In this document: positions 1 through 5,626 of the stretch, one piece after another
How positions within the stretch are numbered: the first letter of the stretch is position 1
Layout of the letters: the number at the start of each line of letters is the position of its first letter
Notes under the pieces: model-generated
What the model was told of the DNA's origin: nothing
The model's input: the letters and a program-made list of their open reading frames with translations, nothing else
Databases searched by the model: none
Made by a program: the position numbers and the translations under genes
DNA from: Mycolicibacterium chubuense NBB4
GTDB taxonomy: Bacteria; Actinomycetota; Actinomycetes; Mycobacteriales; Mycobacteriaceae
Reading direction: 5' to 3'
Assembly: GCF_000266905.1 (NCBI RefSeq)
Contig: NC_018027.1
Location: 3,534,001 to 3,598,000 of the forward strand
Length of the DNA: 64,000 nucleotides

Positions 1-1048
1 GCTTGCTGCCCACGAGCGACAACCATGCGCCCGCGGTGAGGAAGAGTCCGGCCTTGGTGGCCGCATGGGCGACCAGTTGCGTCGCACCGCCACTGATCGC
101 GGCGAGCCCGGCAGCCATCACCACGAAACCCAGCTGCGCCGAGGTCGACGCGGCGAGCAGCTGTTTGAGATCACGCTGGGCGAGGGCCACCGCACCCAGC
201 ACAACGGCAGTCGCAACGCCGAGCCACGCCGCGGCCGGGGCGGCCCACCCCGAGGCAGCCAGGAGATCGCCCATACGCAGCAGCAGGTAGGCGCCCAACG
301 CCACCATCGCTGCCGAGTGCAGCAGAGCGCTGACCGGGCTCGGGCCCTCCATCGCCCGGGAGAGCCAGAACGAGAACGGCAGCTGCGCCGCCTTACCGAG
401 TGCGGCCACCAGAAACCCGGCCGCGATGACGTGCCGCCAGCCGCCGGAGGCGTCCGCGAGGTCCGCCAGCGCGAGCCCCGCTCCGCCGGCGAGTGCACCG
501 CCGGCAGCCAGATACAGACCGAGGTCGGCGGTGCGCGTGGTGAGGAAGGCGGTCAAACCGGCCGACACCCGGTCGTTCTCGCGCCACCAGAAACCGATCA
601 ACCCGTAGGAGACCGCGCCCATGACCTCCCACGCGAGCAGCAGTGCGGGCAGGGTCGCCGCGGTGACGGTCAGCATCGCGGCAGCGGCGAAGACCAGCAT
701 CAACCCGTAGAAGCGGCCGCCCGCCACGGAGTCGTCGCCGACCGTGAAGATCAGCACCAGCAACGTGGTCACGGCAACCGTCGCCGCCATCGTCGCGGCC
801 AGCGCATCCACCCGCAAGGTGAGGTCCGCTCCGGCCATGAACGGCACGTCGACCGTCGGCCTGGCCACGGCGACCACCGCGGAGAGCGCGACCATCACCG
901 CCGACACCGCGACCGAGACCACCGACGGCAGCCGATCGGCGGTCGGACTCCGAAACGCATTGAGCGACAGAATGATTCCACCGGCCGCCGGTAGGCCGAC
1001 CAGCCCCCACAGCGACCACTGCGCACCAGCGAGCATTGCCGCCGTCAT
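1..1048 (-). CDS. nuoL: NuoL-like proton-pumping subunit, partial
   Basis: Membrane antiporter-like subunit of a complex I-type enzyme, related to NuoL/ND5. The ATG at 1048 overlaps the nuoK stop by 4 bp (ATGA). The gene runs off the left window edge, so the C-terminus is missing. The translated part is strongly hydrophobic. It contains the family core GKAAQLPFSFWLSRAMEGP followed by a PVSALLHSAAMV stretch, and later DLKQLLAASTSAQLGF. These are hallmarks of the proton_antipo_M domain, and the lysines expected in the channel are visible. It is the last gene seen in a nuoA-to-nuoL string lacking NADH-module genes. nuoM and nuoN probably follow outside the window (inference). It could also be named after Mrp or hydrogenase-4 antiporter subunits, but the nuoJ/nuoK neighbours favour NuoL. 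Confidence 0.87.
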   Translation of the reverse strand, partial: MTAAMLAGAQWSLWGLVGLPAAGGIILSLNAFRSPTADRLPSVVSVAVSAVMVALSAVVAVARPTVDVPFMAGADLTLRVDALAATMAATVAVTTLLVLIFTVGDDSVAGGRFYGLMLVFAAAAMLTVTAATLPALLLAWEVMGAVSYGLIGFWWRENDRVSAGLTAFLTTRTADLGLYLAAGGALAGGAGLALADLADASGGWRHVIAAGFLVAALGKAAQLPFSFWLSRAMEGPSPVSALLHSAAMVALGAYLLLRMGDLLAASGWAAPAAAWLGVATAVVLGAVALAQRDLKQLLAASTSAQLGFVVMAAGLAAISGGATQLVAHAATKAGLFLTAGAWLSLVGSK

Positions 1049-1347
1049 CCGGTCAGGTCGGTTGCGCTGTCGGTCATGTCGGACTGCCGGTCCCGATGCA
1101 GGAGCGTGGCGACCGCGAATCCCATCGCCATCTCCACGGTCATCGCCGCGATGATCACCATCAGCAGCACCTGACCCGTCGGCGCGGGCGCGAGGAACCA
1201 CCAGAATGCCGCGGCAGCGAGGATGACGGCGTTGATCATCAGCTCCAGGCCCATCATCACCATCACCACCACCTGCTGGGACAACGCGCCGTACAAGCCG
1301 ACGCTGAACAGCGCTGCGGCAACCAGCAGCACCGTCTGCAGCGTCAT
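1045..1347 (-). CDS. nuoK: NADH-quinone oxidoreductase subunit K-like
   Basis: 100-residue membrane protein with three hydrophobic helices, the normal size for NuoK/ND4L. It retains a glutamate in helix 2 (residue 35, in GLELMINAV) and one in helix 3 (residue 72, in MTVEMAMGF). These correspond to the two glutamates known to matter for proton translocation in E. coli NuoK, so the pump channel looks functional. Its start overlaps the nuoJ stop by 4 bp and its stop overlaps the nuoL start by 4 bp, so all three are probably translationally coupled. The short C-terminal tail after helix 3 is polar and typical. Confidence 0.93.
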   Translation of the reverse strand: MTLQTVLLVAAALFSVGLYGALSQQVVVMVMMGLELMINAVILAAAAFWWFLAPAPTGQVLLMVIIAAMTVEMAMGFAVATLLHRDRQSDMTDSATDLTG

Positions 1348-1907
1348 CGCCCCACCCCTCCCGGTTGCGGGTCCCGAGGGGGACGCCGGCGCAGGTCGTC
1401 ACCGAGCCGGTCGTACCGGCTGCGATGAGTGGCCAGCACCACACCGCCCACGATCGTGGCGACCATCACCGGGCTGATCACCACCATGGCGAGCATCTTC
1501 GGCCCCATCAGCGCGGCGCCGAGCGCGGCGGTGACATCTCCCGGCGGACTCCCACGCCGCTGCGGCCAGTCCACCGACAGGATGCCGGCGGCCAACAGCG
1601 CGAACGTCGCCGCCGAGACAGCGATCGACATGCGCTTGCCGTGCACCATGCTCATCGGCATCAGCGCCGGGTTCATGCCCATGAACATGACCATGTAGAC
1701 GGCCATCACCGCCATCTCCATGACCATCATCAGAATGACGATGACGCCCACGTAGTTCTGCGCCAGCAGCAGCACCGCGACGCCGACCGCGATGAACGAC
1801 GTCGCCAGGGCGTAGGTGGCGCGGGCCATCGAATCGACGACGAACACCGCAGCTCCGGCGGCGACGGCCACCACAGCGGCGATCCAGAACACGACGTCGG
1901 CAACCAT
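1344..1907 (-). CDS. nuoJ: NADH-quinone oxidoreductase subunit J-like
   Basis: 187-residue protein with about five membrane helices, matching NuoJ/ND6. The region LAQNYVGVIVILMMV is the typical conserved helix 3. It is followed by a methionine-rich helix (VYMVMFMGMNPALMPM) richer in Met than most NuoJ proteins. The C-terminal tail is short and basic (RRRPPRDPQPG). The gene lies 6 bp after the nuoH stop and overlaps nuoK by 4 bp, so it belongs to the same transcript. NuoJ contributes the central half-channel and the pi-bulge coupling element in canonical complex I. No residue loss is obvious by eye. Confidence 0.9.
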   Translation of the reverse strand: MVADVVFWIAAVVAVAAGAAVFVVDSMARATYALATSFIAVGVAVLLLAQNYVGVIVILMMVMEMAVMAVYMVMFMGMNPALMPMSMVHGKRMSIAVSAATFALLAAGILSVDWPQRRGSPPGDVTAALGAALMGPKMLAMVVISPVMVATIVGGVVLATHRSRYDRLGDDLRRRPPRDPQPGGVGR

Positions 1908-1913
1908 GAGTTC

Positions 1914-2846
1914 TCACCTCCAGACCGTGACGACGGCCACGACCAGATCTTGTACGAGTACGGCCGGCAGCAGCACAAGCCAGCCGACCTCCATGAACCT
2001 GTCCGGGCGAAGGATCGGCAACCGGCGCCGGACCCACACGAGAAACGTCAGCACCGCAACGGTTTTCACGAGGACCCACAACCACTCCGGCAGCACCGGA
2101 CCCGCGCCTCCCCCGAGGAACAGGGGGACGGAGAACGCCGACCCGGCGGCCAGCACTGTGTACCGTCCCACACTCCAGAGCAGGCGATCGACGCCGGAGA
2201 GCTCTGCGGCCACCCCGCCGGAGATGTCGGCGCCGACCGCGGCCGAGAGCGGCCCCCACACCGAGAACCCGGTCACCGCAAGCAAATACACACCGAAGGC
2301 GACCGGCATCCACACCCCGTACCACAGGCCGTGCTGGGCGTCGGCCACCGTGCCGACCCGCAGGCTGGCCGCCGCGATGGCGGGACCGACCAACGCGAAC
2401 ATGAGCGGCAACTCGTAGCCGAGTGCCTGAGCGAGGAACCGGTAACCCCCGATGAGCGGGTGAATCGAGTTGGGGCCCCAGCCGGCCAGCCACACCAACG
2501 CCCACACACAGACGTCCATCGCGTTGAACCAGACGATGCCCACATCGCTGTCGAACAGCGTCCACCGACCCAGCGGCACCACGGTGATCATCAGCAGGGC
2601 GACGGTGATCAGGCCCCCACCGCCGATTCGCCACAGCAACCGGTCGGCCGCGACGGTGGTGCGCCGTCGCTGACAGAGCAGCCGGACGGACTCCGCCAGC
2701 GGCGCTCGCAGGTGCGCCGCTGCACCGACGTCGCGCCCGGACAGTCCGCTGTCGAGTGCGGCGGCGTAATACCCGAGCGCGAGGACCAACGCGGCGGCGA
2801 CTGTCGCCCACACCCCCGAAACCGTGGTGATCGTCGACGCAGTCAT
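1914..2846 (-). CDS. nuoH: NADH-quinone oxidoreductase subunit H-like
   Basis: 310-residue membrane protein of the NuoH/ND1 family, the subunit that docks the hydrophilic arm to the membrane arm. The ATG at 2846 overlaps the stop of the upstream fused gene by 4 bp, and this start gives a clean first helix. The helix segment YELPLMFALVGPAIAA matches the family YElP motif with its conserved glutamate. The cytosolic segment between helices 1 and 2 (HLRAPLAESVRLL) resembles the family helix that normally lines the quinone site, but the GPNRVGP-type signature is not recognisable. That fits the reduced NuoB/NuoD partner encoded just upstream. Canonical NuoH is slightly longer (about 325-400 residues). 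Confidence 0.88.
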   Translation of the reverse strand: MTASTITTVSGVWATVAAALVLALGYYAAALDSGLSGRDVGAAAHLRAPLAESVRLLCQRRRTTVAADRLLWRIGGGGLITVALLMITVVPLGRWTLFDSDVGIVWFNAMDVCVWALVWLAGWGPNSIHPLIGGYRFLAQALGYELPLMFALVGPAIAAASLRVGTVADAQHGLWYGVWMPVAFGVYLLAVTGFSVWGPLSAAVGADISGGVAAELSGVDRLLWSVGRYTVLAAGSAFSVPLFLGGGAGPVLPEWLWVLVKTVAVLTFLVWVRRRLPILRPDRFMEVGWLVLLPAVLVQDLVVAVVTVWR

Positions 2847-3997
2847 GCCGTACCCACCCCGGCGCGCAGCGATGTCTCGATGCCCAGACCCGCGACGGTC
2901 AGGCGCGCGGCGGCGATGTCGAGGCCAGCCACCAGATCGGGCAGAGCCTCCACAACGGCGCCACCCGGTAAGGGACTGTCCCGCAGGGACTTCGACGCGA
3001 GGCCGGAAGCGATGCGCAGTCTCTCGAGCAACCGGTCGTAGGCGTCGCCGGAGAGTCCGGCGGGCAGCTGACACCGGTCGAGCTCGCGTTCCGTCAGCGG
3101 CCCGACGCCGCACAGGGACCAGCGCAGCACCCCCGATCGGCGCACGCTGCGCTGCAGCCGCTCGAGCAGCGGCAGCGCGCCGCGGTCGTCGCCCGCGAGC
3201 AGAAGGTCCCGGCAGCGGCGTGCGAGCACGGCACCGCGGGCCCATCCCGCCAGGGCCAGCAGATCGTGGATGTGGTCGCACTCCCGGGCCGCGGCGACCG
3301 ACCCGGTGGCTGACCGGCCGGCGGTCCAGTCGCCGACAGGGCCGGCGGCATCGACGATCCAGGCCTGCGCCTCGGCGATGACGTCACCGTGCAGACTGCA
3401 CCGCAGCACCAGCGCGGCCGGCCAGAAGCTCAACACGGGGCCCAGCCGCAGATGCAGGGTGTCCATCTCCAGTCCGTCACGATCCTCCCCGCCCTGGGCG
3501 AGCGGGATCCCTTCCGGCGCCATGTCCATGTCGCCGTCCATGTCGCCGTGATCCATTCCGCTGTGGTCGGAGTCGTGATCCATGTCTGCTTCGCCGTCGC
3601 CGTCGCCATCGCCGGCTTCGCCGTCCTCGGAGTCGGGCGCGGGCTCGGGATGCCGGGGGCGGTCGCGGGCGTCGACCCGCTGACCGGCGATGTCGAGCAA
3701 CGTCGCGGCGGCGCTGTCGAGTTCGCGCGCCGCGTGCGCGGCATCGCGGATGTCGACGCGCGCCCGGGGGCCGGGAAGCTGGCGCCAGATCTGCTCGACG
3801 ACGGTCGACATCTCGGGACCGGGTGGACCGCAGACCGCCAGCACATCGGCGTCGGCGGCGCACAGCGCGCGGCGCCAACCGCGCGCCGACATCTCGCGCT
3901 CCAGCGCGCACCGGGTGACCCAGTGGCCGGCCACCTCCACGGTGAGCACACGGACTCTGGTCACCGCGAGCCGAGCCAGCGTGTCCCTCAGGCCCAC
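2843..3997 (-). CDS. Fused NuoB-like/NuoD-like protein without Fe-S cysteines
   Basis: 384-residue soluble protein between nuoA and nuoH. The GTG at 3997 is preceded by a GGGAGGGGG ribosome site inside nuoA and overlaps nuoA by 10 bp. Residues 1-105 resemble the second half of NuoB (ADVLAVCGPPGPEM, then IWRQLPGPRARVDI), but the CC and other cluster-N2 cysteines are missing. Residues 123-159 form an Asp/Met/His-rich linker (MDHGDMDGDMDM). From about residue 183 the chain resembles a worn NuoD N-terminus (LHLRLGPVLSFWPAALVL, HGDVIAEAQ) and a later NuoD helix region, ending at residue 384. The NuoB and NuoD assignments are inferences from pattern and gene position. If correct, this polypeptide replaces the quinone module without carrying its redox centre. 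Confidence 0.75.
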   Translation of the reverse strand: MGLRDTLARLAVTRVRVLTVEVAGHWVTRCALEREMSARGWRRALCAADADVLAVCGPPGPEMSTVVEQIWRQLPGPRARVDIRDAAHAARELDSAAATLLDIAGQRVDARDRPRHPEPAPDSEDGEAGDGDGDGEADMDHDSDHSGMDHGDMDGDMDMAPEGIPLAQGGEDRDGLEMDTLHLRLGPVLSFWPAALVLRCSLHGDVIAEAQAWIVDAAGPVGDWTAGRSATGSVAAARECDHIHDLLALAGWARGAVLARRCRDLLLAGDDRGALPLLERLQRSVRRSGVLRWSLCGVGPLTERELDRCQLPAGLSGDAYDRLLERLRIASGLASKSLRDSPLPGGAVVEALPDLVAGLDIAAARLTVAGLGIETSLRAGVGTA

Positions 3998-4332
3998 CGC
4001 AGGGCCCCCTCCCGCCAGGCCCACGCCACCGCGACGAACAGCGCAGCCAGGAAGACGAACATCTCGACGATCGCCCGGGCGCCTTTCTCCGCGACGACGA
4101 GCGCCCACGGATACATGAACAGCATTTCGACGTCGAAGGCCAGGAACACGATGGAGGCCGGGTACCAGCGGGCGTGGTACCGCGACAGCGCGTGTTCTTC
4201 CGGTCGCCACCCGGACTGAAAGGGCAACGACACGAGAACCGTCGGCGCGACCGCGGCGAGGCGATGCAGTGCGTAGACGCCGGCGATCCCCAGCAACGCG
4301 ACCAGCACCATCGCCACCATGCCGGTGTACAT
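3988..4332 (-). CDS. nuoA: NADH-quinone oxidoreductase subunit A-like
   Basis: 114-residue, three-helix membrane protein of the NuoA/ND3 family and first gene of this operon. The start has a good ribosome site (GGGAGGACC). The acidic pair in helix 2 is present (FDVEMLF, Asp67 and Glu69) with the typical PWA motif after it. The loop that normally reads ECG (the ND3 loop cysteine near the quinone site) reads QSG here (residues 39-41). This loss matches the missing Fe-S ligands in the adjacent fused NuoB/NuoD-like protein. The C-terminus is RWA, and the next gene starts inside it. Confidence 0.9.
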   Translation of the reverse strand: MYTGMVAMVLVALLGIAGVYALHRLAAVAPTVLVSLPFQSGWRPEEHALSRYHARWYPASIVFLAFDVEMLFMYPWALVVAEKGARAIVEMFVFLAALFVAVAWAWREGALRWA

Positions 4333-4444
4333 GGCGCAAGGTCCTCCCGCGGATCGTCGTCGACACGAGCCGCCGCACCGGCGACCCCGGGCTAAGGTTC
4401 CCGACGCAAAGGCCGGTAAACCCTTTTCGGCCGGTCGCGCCGGA

Positions 4445-5050
4445 TCAGCGCGGCGACCGCCACATCTGCCACATCGTCGGCCCGCCGTCGGGGACCGTGA
4501 GCTCGCCGGTCACCTCGAAGCCGAACCGCAGGTAGTACGGCACGTTGGATTCCTTCGTCGACTCCAGATAGGCGGGGGCGCCCTCGGCGTCGCAACGATC
4601 GAGCCGCGAGGCCATCAGGGCCTGCCCGAAGCCGGTGCCCCGCACGCCGGGATCGCTGCCGATCACCGCCAGATACCAGTGCGGCTCCTCCGGGTGGTGG
4701 CGCTTCATCAGTTCGGACACGACCTGCCCTCGCCGGCCTTCGCTGCCCATCGCCAGCAGGAACGCCGGCAGCATGCGCAGTTCCTCGATCGCCGTCTGCT
4801 TCCACCGGCCCGGGGGGTCCCACAGCGCCGCCGCACCGACCGCCCCGGCGGTCGAGGCGATCTCCACCGCGTCGTTGGCCAGGAAGTGGTGCCGGGTCAT
4901 CGCCGCGAAGATCCGCGGCAGCGCCTTCGCCCGCCGCGCGCCGTTGGGCACCATCCACATCATCACGGGATCGTCGTGAAAAGCCCGGCCCAGCACGCGG
5001 GCCAACGTCTTCACGTCCGACCGGCGCGCGGGAGCGACATCGATGGCCAC
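4445..5050 (-). CDS. GNAT family N-acetyltransferase
   Basis: 201-residue acetyltransferase of the GNAT fold. The acetyl-CoA pyrophosphate-binding motif A is visible as RGTGFGQAL (around residues 137-145). It is preceded by the beta strand HWYLAVIGSDP and followed by the motif B region PYYLRFGFEV near residue 170. This arrangement is common among actinobacterial acetyltransferases whose acceptor is unknown, and no substrate can be read from the sequence. It stands alone, about 110 bp from the start of the nuo-like operon. The N-terminal half (residues 40-100) is helical and charged. Confidence 0.85.
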   Translation of the reverse strand: MAIDVAPARRSDVKTLARVLGRAFHDDPVMMWMVPNGARRAKALPRIFAAMTRHHFLANDAVEIASTAGAVGAAALWDPPGRWKQTAIEELRMLPAFLLAMGSEGRRGQVVSELMKRHHPEEPHWYLAVIGSDPGVRGTGFGQALMASRLDRCDAEGAPAYLESTKESNVPYYLRFGFEVTGELTVPDGGPTMWQMWRSPR

Positions 5051-5077
5051 GACCCCGACCCTACGCGGCGGCGCCCC

Positions 5078-5506
5078 TCATCCCTGGGTGATGTAGGCCT
5101 GCAGTTGCTGCTGCTCCCGCTCGAGTTCCTCCATGCGGGTCTTGACGACGTCACCGATGCTGACGATCCCGGCGAGCCGGTCGCCCACGACCACCGGCAC
5201 GTGCCGCACCCGGTTGGTGGTCATCAGCGCGCTCAGGCTGTCCACGGAGTCGTCGGGCGAGCATGTCGCCACCAGTGTCGTCATGATGTCCGACACGGGC
5301 CGCCGCAAGAGGTCGGGGCCGATCTCGTGCAGCTTGCGCACGACATCACGCTCGGACACGATGCCCTGCAACCCATCCGGCGACACCACGACCATGGCGC
5401 CGATGTTGTGCACGGACAGTTCGGTCAGCAGGCCGGCAACCGAGGTTTCGGGCGTGATCGTGGCCACCGTCGCACCCTTGTTGCGCAACACATCGGATAT
5501 CCGCAC
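5078..5506 (-). CDS. CBS domain-containing protein
   Basis: 142-residue protein made of two CBS motifs (about residues 8-60 and 72-128) forming one Bateman module. Such modules sense adenine nucleotides or related ligands. Features seen are GIVSERDVVRKL after the first motif, the RHVPVV strand, and GIVSIGDVVK in the second. The tail (MEELEREQQQLQAYI) looks helical. A GTG start at 5506 is chosen because it follows GGGAGG at 5 bp spacing and matches the usual VRISDVL beginning. A start 9 codons upstream is open but has no ribosome site. It corresponds in order to Rv2406c of M. tuberculosis. Ligand and partner are unknown. Confidence 0.88.
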   Translation of the reverse strand: MRISDVLRNKGATVATITPETSVAGLLTELSVHNIGAMVVVSPDGLQGIVSERDVVRKLHEIGPDLLRRPVSDIMTTLVATCSPDDSVDSLSALMTTNRVRHVPVVVGDRLAGIVSIGDVVKTRMEELEREQQQLQAYITQG

Positions 5507-5626
5507 CGGCACCTCCCTGGTGACCCACGTCACATCAGGCTACTCCAGAGAGCCTCCGCAGCGGAACAGATCGGCGGTGGCGCTCGTTGCACCGGCGAAC
5601 GGCCCGGACTCCCGAAAGGATGGCAG

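Follow-up and report, generated by a model that had tools for sequence, protein, structure and literature searches.

Gene content and distribution of the operon

The 64,000-nucleotide stretch of Mycolicibacterium chubuense NBB4 analysed here (NC_018027.1, positions 3,534,001 to 3,598,000; hereafter the window) begins inside a minus-strand operon of eight genes related to respiratory complex I. Read 5' to 3', the order is nuoA-X-nuoH-nuoJ-nuoK-nuoL-nuoM-nuoN, where X encodes an unusual subunit that is the main subject of this study and nuoM and nuoN lie just beyond the window (Table 1). The genes overlap or almost touch their neighbours. The initial annotation had placed X correctly at 2843..3997; the gene has a GTG start and its stop codon at 2845-2843.

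A Pfam scan of the open reading frames (ORFs) around X gave matches to NuoA, NuoH, NuoJ, NuoK and NuoL, all above cut-off, and X itself had no Pfam match above cut-off. The five pump subunits named by the initial annotation are thus kept, with NuoM and NuoN following, and the residues that it listed (NuoK E35/E72, NuoA D67/E69 and the NuoH Y-E-L-P motif) are present. No further Nuo gene (NuoC, E, F, G or I) was found in the window's operon or in four annotated plasmid regions with X. It means that the operon has no NADH module, and the gap 1907-1914 between nuoH and nuoJ leaves no room for nuoI, both as had been proposed. A canonical NuoB/NuoD set adjoining the operon, a check set by the same annotation, was not there: nuoM, nuoN and a gene resembling lepA (named by eye) follow. 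The window's genome matches the NuoD family PF00346 only once, at C3:1581465, within a canonical nuo region of its own 1.95 Mb away.

Table 1. Positions of the operon genes and of the features within them. Coordinates are those of the window; G000 denotes the window's genome.
Feature	Position	Strand	Basis
nuoA-like, first gene of the operon	3988..4332	-	Pfam PF00507, 81 bits
nuoA, gained invariant His53, Met70, Met73	codons within 4114-4176	-	residue counts, 103/103
X, predicted fused degenerate NuoB-NuoD subunit, 384 aa	2843..3997	-	profile and structure-model matches
X residues 1-115, predicted NuoB-like domain without N2 cysteines	3653..3997	-	AF2, fold matches and Cys mapping
X residues 116-170, mostly low-confidence Asp/His/Met-rich linker	3488..3652	-	pLDDT, His/Met enrichment across the family
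X residues 171-384, predicted NuoD-like domain, quinone His/Tyr absent	2846..3487	-	
nuoH-like, E214 kept, most of the canonical TM5-6 quinone loop lost	1914..2843	-	PF00146, 144 bits; alignment
nuoJ-like with methionine ladder	1344..1907	-	PF00499, 40 bits
NuoJ residues 60-89, TM3 and TM3-4 loop: Met60, 61, 65, 68, 72, 76, 78, 85, 87, Glu64, His89	1641..1730	-	
nuoK-like, E35/E72 kept, Met29, Met31, Met69 gained	1045..1347	-	PF00420, 50 bits
nuoL-like, N-terminal part, runs off the window	1..1048; full gene G000:C3:3533189-3535048	-	PF00361, 136 bits
nuoM and nuoN, beyond the window	about G000:C3:3531696-3533192 and 3530286-3531692		

The X profile matched 64 of 396 sampled Actinomycetota genomes; many of these matches are short, score about 20 bits and resemble ordinary NuoB. 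Besides the window's own, the order A-X-H-J-K-L-M-N was found in 18/18 Actinomycetota match genomes with long stretches, counting one (L054) where X was found only by profile and one (L060) that ends before nuoN. Among 102 loci with homology-guided ORFs, all eight genes were recovered at the first pass in 76. NuoJ or NuoK was missing from some of the others, probably because of the ORF bias filter, and without the filter both were recovered in 102. In Pseudomonadota the profile matched 17 of 398 genomes; the six read were all of X type and the rest are mostly short NuoB-like matches. The initial annotation had pointed to reduced nuo-like clusters in other actinobacteria; the gene order seen here occurs in both phyla. 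X is also present on 14 plasmids.

Three Lysobacter loci (Gammaproteobacteria; L113, L116, L166) carry an actinobacterial-type copy with 42% identity to the window's X, a likeness that suggests transfer between the phyla. In the carriers, both actinobacteria and gammaproteobacteria, the operon genes are currently annotated as NADH-quinone oxidoreductase subunits, and X is labelled hypothetical protein in the annotated records examined.

Subunit X and the redox ligands

Searched against NCBIfam up to E=1, X alone gave a sole match, to NuoB (residues 42-89, E=0.13). A profile of 38 X homologues searched against the PDB found NuoB chains first (Nqo6, E=1.1e-4, profile positions 45-83) and 49 kDa/NuoD chains from E=0.025 (positions 291-340). 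One list of fold matches covered the NuoD part only, and the N-terminal domain was modelled separately. The AlphaFold2 (AF2) model of residues 1-118 had a predicted local distance difference test score (pLDDT) of 91.6, and its fold matches are NuoB/PSST and related chains, with one row in 50 (9a6d_A) not being a complex I protein. The structure models of X therefore match both folds. The initial annotation had read X as a NuoB half joined to a NuoD half, and homologue profile and fold matches support both halves above chance; by these models, X joins a NuoB-like domain to a NuoD-like one.

Between the two domains the model has low confidence (pLDDT <50 at residues 125-128 and 132-168), and this part has a composition of metal-binding type. 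The 70 residues preceding the NuoD domain contain 12.9% His and 7.9% Met, compared with 2.7% and 1.3% downstream, over 127 loci of which at least 15 were counted twice, because a genome could enter with both a short and a long stretch. Some relatives have a heavy-metal-binding domain in this part: HMBD (PF19335) matched one X relative at E=3e-27, and an HMBD-like motif is found in 13 of 108 distinct X.

The ligands of the redox chemistry are gone. At the four mapped positions of cluster N2, Cys is missing from all 41 aligned family members, and the Cys-Cys pair is absent from all 41 N-domains. The loss noted at first for the window's X is shared by all the homologues aligned. The His and Tyr of NuoD, which we take to be quinone ligands, are absent too: of 125 NuoD-like domains, 123 have Pro, one Ser and one Ala in place of the His, and at the Tyr column 104 are gapped and 21 have Pro. 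The loop between transmembrane helices (TM) 5 and 6 of NuoH, which lines the quinone cavity in canonical complex I (PMC10212512, available text), is degenerate in most of 30 aligned loci and partly retained in the HMBD-bearing branch.

We also considered that X might borrow the peripheral arm of a canonical complex I. This is not generally possible, because 10 of 46 carrier genomes have no PF00346 match (the 46 being the window's own and those of 45 of 80 loci, mostly on longer contigs, with several congeneric). An eleventh, G440, has only a partial match of 67 bits. The ten (G406, G410, G411, G414, G418, G419, G430, G431, G432 and G439), among them Kocuria carniphila, Brevibacterium antiquum and Arthrobacter echini, hence have no recognised NuoD of canonical complex I.

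Methionine ladder and copper-gene neighbourhoods

For comparison with about 100 X operons, 20 operons of canonical complex I were used, every one taken from a carrier genome. A residue was called gained when it filled at least 90% of its column in the near X group as well as in the far one, and no more than 10% in canonical operons. Methionine accounts for 16 of 35 gained invariant columns in NuoA, NuoJ and NuoK, versus 1 of 46 in NuoH, NuoL, NuoM and NuoN (Fisher p=1.5e-6). In NuoJ, Met27, Met138 and all residues of TM3 and its following loop listed in Table 1 are each present in 102/102 X operons (97 distinct sequences), and canonical NuoJ has Met in 0/20 at the X-type Met positions. The gained residues of NuoA and NuoK in the same table are each found in 103/103 and 102/102 operons, respectively.

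The methionines are concentrated in NuoJ residues 51-96, which contain 10-14 of them (median 12) in the X type and 2-4 (median 3) in the canonical type. A motif describing this ladder was found in 102/102 X-operon NuoJ and 0/20 canonical NuoJ. By eye the ladder was recognised in all six Pseudomonadota loci read; it is also in all 120 listed of 1577 matches to one Pseudomonadota NuoJ, a set selected by similarity in which the named carriers are mostly Halomonadaceae, Marinobacter and relatives. Of the seven TM3 methionines, a chosen five (Met61, 65, 68, 72 and 76) line up on the same side of the helix (p=0.0026).

In canonical complex I, NuoA, NuoJ, NuoK and part of NuoH make up the E-channel; NuoJ TM3 toggles between open and closed states with coupling, and the TM3-4 loop is in communication with that of NuoA (PMC10212512, available text). 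Judging from the alignments, the 16 methionines gained in NuoA, NuoJ and NuoK may form a path in the membrane. Most residues of proton transfer are kept at the same time. In NuoL, E141 is present in 101/101 and K219, H244 and K387 in 100/100 letters; in NuoM, K223 in 98/99, K254 in 99/99 and E406 in 98/99; and in NuoN, K248 and K388 in 98/98. NuoK keeps E35 in 102/102 and E72 in 100/102, NuoA keeps E69 in 103/103, and NuoH keeps E214 in 100/102.

The flanks of the operon were examined by clustering all flank ORFs of the 102 loci with no preset families; they reach a median of 9.5 kb upstream (maximum 13.6) and 3.3 kb downstream. The recurrent families were P1B ATPase/HMA (42 loci), DUF305 (33, in two clusters), multicopper oxidase (24), CsoR (23), DUF326 (19), BNR-repeat (15) and ArsR (14), and the remaining large clusters resemble shadow ORFs of these. 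One representative per family was checked in Pfam, two for DUF305, and the Cys-His-Cys pattern of CsoR was read by eye in four sequences. DUF305, DUF326, CsoR and P1B-1 proteins have roles with copper. At least one of the five copper families (P1B/HMA, DUF305, multicopper oxidase, CsoR, DUF326) lies in 67/102 loci, or 64/98 distinct ones, and at least two in 48/102, or 45/98. The reduction to 98 removes one identical stretch (L044 = L098) and three further pairs with identical X core.

Within the set of 80 loci, 17 of 29 mycobacterial ones and 34 of 51 others have such flanks. In Pseudomonadota, CsoR or multicopper oxidase was found in three of five loci other than Lysobacter, and copper-type genes are near X in three of four plasmids read among the 14. 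In 23/102 loci (23/98 distinct) a copper-family gene precedes nuoA in the same direction, with its end no more than 300 nt away.

Of the 46 genomes, 23 have CsoR or DUF305 at most 20 kb from X, versus 2.67 expected (P~2e-17 if the genomes are independent), with DUF305 counts being lower bounds since only rows among the matches listed were entered. Near canonical nuoD the count is 0/36 full-length places in 35 genomes (two in G407; partial PF00346 matches left out). As a family, X operons are genetically linked to copper genes, and the window's own copy is not.

Several side observations concern these neighbourhoods. Some Mycolicibacterium operons (window 3988-5533, L067, L071) seemingly share one chromosomal site beside a CBS-domain-like gene (named by eye), and this site lies away from copper genes, unlike the plasmid copies. 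The DUF305 gene of the window's genome (G000:C3:2277784-2278303) gave two adjacent match pieces and may be split. In some distant actinobacterial loci an ArsR-family regulator stands directly upstream of nuoA (L048 8907-9272, Pfam HTH_5; L049 10650-11012; L050 10953-11318) and is a candidate metal sensor for the operon. The BNR-repeat-like family occurs at L122 5956-6882, at L144 10660-11571 (annotated as F510_1955 family glycosylhydrolase) and in 13 other loci. Thirteen of the 102 loci, L093 (8922-9470) among them, encode in their flanks a small protein that by eye resembles rhodanese. The motif TACCC-N5-GGGTA, which we take to be the RicR-type operator, has 17 sites with up to 2 mismatches in window 1-64000; shuffles have a mean of 10.1, and 0/100 reach 17.

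Proposed function and comparison with known systems

The redox parts are lost, the proton pumps are kept, a methionine ladder and a metal-binding type of subunit are gained, and copper genes are nearby; together it means that the complex probably moves copper and not electrons. We propose that the operon encodes a non-redox derivative of complex I, most likely a proton-driven exporter of cytosolic Cu(I), possibly Ag(I), with a probability of about 0.58. We infer the identity of the metal, its binding, transport and direction, and the stoichiometry from the features above. The initial annotation had supposed that the membrane part is used differently from complex I, for example as a proton or sodium channel. 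Its structural half stands, and the channel is replaced here by a probable proton-coupled transporter of copper (a soft metal).

Thioether ligands stand in the cation-moving region and soft-metal ligands in the former NuoB/NuoD base, so that the simplest model is H+ in and Cu(I) out. In this model NuoJ TM3, normally the gating helix of the E-channel in proton pumping, would conduct Cu(I)/Ag(I) across the membrane on its methionines, the NuoB/NuoD base would collect the metal, and the three antiporter-like subunits would drive its export by H+ influx; we give this arrangement even odds. X, docked at the NuoB/NuoD position, would use its His/Met linker, or in some relatives the HMBD domain, to gather Cu(I) from the cytosol, and would pass it to NuoA His53 and the Met-rich TM3-4 loop of NuoJ. 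By analogy with complex I, both X and this loop should be on the cytosolic side. The ion would then travel the methionine stripe of TM3, flanked by the new methionines of NuoA and NuoK and beside the retained E-channel glutamates, and proton entry through NuoL, NuoM and NuoN would pay for export against the membrane potential.

Some results weigh against copper export. The stripe test with all seven TM3 methionines gives only p=0.05, and canonical-invariant Met is lost at 11 columns across the seven subunits. The linker has fewer than 8 His plus Met per 70 residues in 29/127 loci (19/107 distinct X). Among the pump residues, NuoN is without its TM5 glutamate and has Glu for the TM7 lysine in several loci, and the TM5 Glu of NuoM is replaced by Asp in 24/30 loci. 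In the flanks examined, 35/102 loci have none of the five copper families, one of the four plasmid regions read has no copper-type genes, and neither CsoR nor DUF305 is found within 25 kb of the copy in the window. No RicR-type site of the above definition lies upstream of nuoA, the first gene of the operon, and this candidate was dropped. Copper proximity alone is weak evidence, because many kinds of resistance gene accumulate in islands and the loci do not count as independent.

The published reading for Salinispora (PMC3314556) and Kocuria flava (PMC6002675), as given in their available text, is a partial NDH-1 serving as a Na+/H+ module in marine or osmotic adaptation, without a metal. The four Salinispora loci lack all five copper families in their flanks, which both favours that module and counts against copper export, and many of the named Pseudomonadota carriers are halophiles. 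As a general explanation of the operon it is nevertheless very unlikely: thioether ladders fit soft metals and not Na+ by their general chemistry, X has a metal-binding type of linker or HMBD, copper genes are neighbours of the family, many carriers are mycobacteria or plasmids, and the Salinispora NuoJ is itself among the 102/102 with the ladder. A decaying, functionless remnant of complex I, which would fit the missing redox subunits and the label hypothetical protein, is hardly credible and is already contradicted by conservation, with the identical eight-gene order in two phyla and 16 newly invariant methionines, and by the presence of X on plasmids and in genomes without a PF00346 match.

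Other readings accept copper and give it a different role. Cu(I) at X and NuoJ might control proton flux or signalling without being transported, as a copper-gated channel or sensor; most proton-channel residues are kept, but the methionines span TM3 and the following loop instead of making one site, and a complex with three pumps is costly for sensing, which leaves this unlikely. An importer or metal loader feeding exported cuproproteins such as multicopper oxidase seems quite improbable. Multicopper oxidase ORFs do occur in 24/102 flanks, and in the FB24 plasmid one adjoins nuoA on its upstream side, but cation import at normal membrane potential requires no pump arm, the company of Cu-type P1B ATPase and CsoR indicates detoxification, and X is expected on the cytosolic side from complex I homology. 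Copper could also be an electron carrier in place of cluster N2, its redox driving proton pumping, in line with a metal-binding-type region inside the NuoB-NuoD subunit and a complete pump arm. We give this little chance: the quinone His and Tyr are lost, most of the 30 loci have a degenerate NuoH loop, the operon has no additional conserved gene, and the ladder is in the membrane part, away from the N2 position.

If the export model is true, transition-metal transport would, to our knowledge, be a first within the complex I superfamily, and a proton-driven copper-export system would be added to actinobacteria and gammaproteobacteria. How the distant quinone site is coupled to the proton pumps in complex I is a long-standing question. 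A relative that keeps most pump and E-channel residues, with electrons probably swapped for a metal ion, would separate coupling from redox chemistry, and coupling could then be tested by mutating single residues of NuoJ TM3. Since 10 of the 46 carriers have no PF00346 match, the phenotype of a deletion could be scored in a background free of complex I.

The X operon shares with respiratory complex I the subunits NuoA, H, J, K, L, M and N, the NuoB and NuoD folds and most E-channel and antiporter residues. It differs by the absence of NuoC, E, F, G and I, by the fusion of NuoB with NuoD, by the loss of the N2 cysteines and quinone His/Tyr, by the Met and His gained in NuoA, NuoJ and NuoK, and by the His/Met linker of X. 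The energy-converting hydrogenase/MBH group has separate small and large subunits with Fe-S and, in hydrogenases, NiFe cysteines, whereas X is a single fused protein without the CC pair (41/41).

With the Mrp cation/proton antiporter (MrpA-G set) the operon shares antiporter-like and small subunits in a non-redox use. The antiporter-like subunits of Mrp are proposed to take H+ in and another domain to carry Na+ out (PMC7419157, available text). Unlike Mrp, the X operon has NuoH (PF00146), NuoA (PF00507) and a NuoB/NuoD-derived subunit, with a Met ladder and not a Na+ site, and NCBIfam ranks NDH-1 subunit L first for the window's NuoL part. Two other antiporter-type genes of the window's genome, near C3:530-535 kb, were taken as putative Mrp.

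The second partial NDH-1 operon of Salinispora was reported as Na+ or proton pumping and acquired with marine adaptation (PMC3314556), and the seven genes nuoAHJKLMN of Kocuria flava S43 were read as marine adaptation (PMC6002675). These are very probably the same operon, since Salinispora and Kocuria loci in the present set share the gene set. The available text of these two accounts does not mention an X subunit, a methionine ladder or a copper role of the operon, though copper does occur elsewhere in the Kocuria flava paper. Copper is absent from the main text of a 2025 hidden Markov model survey of complex I (PMC12361115), and NADH, nuo and copper from that of the pMAH135 plasmid paper (PMC4324632). 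Titles and abstract openings of open-licence PMC papers gave no link of the operon to copper or other metals.

The copper transporters CusA, Ctr1 and P1B-1 have methionine-lined paths for Cu(I). The X operon resembles them in such a predicted path, and P1B-type ATPase genes stand in its flanks, but the folds are unrelated, and P1B-1 runs on ATP.

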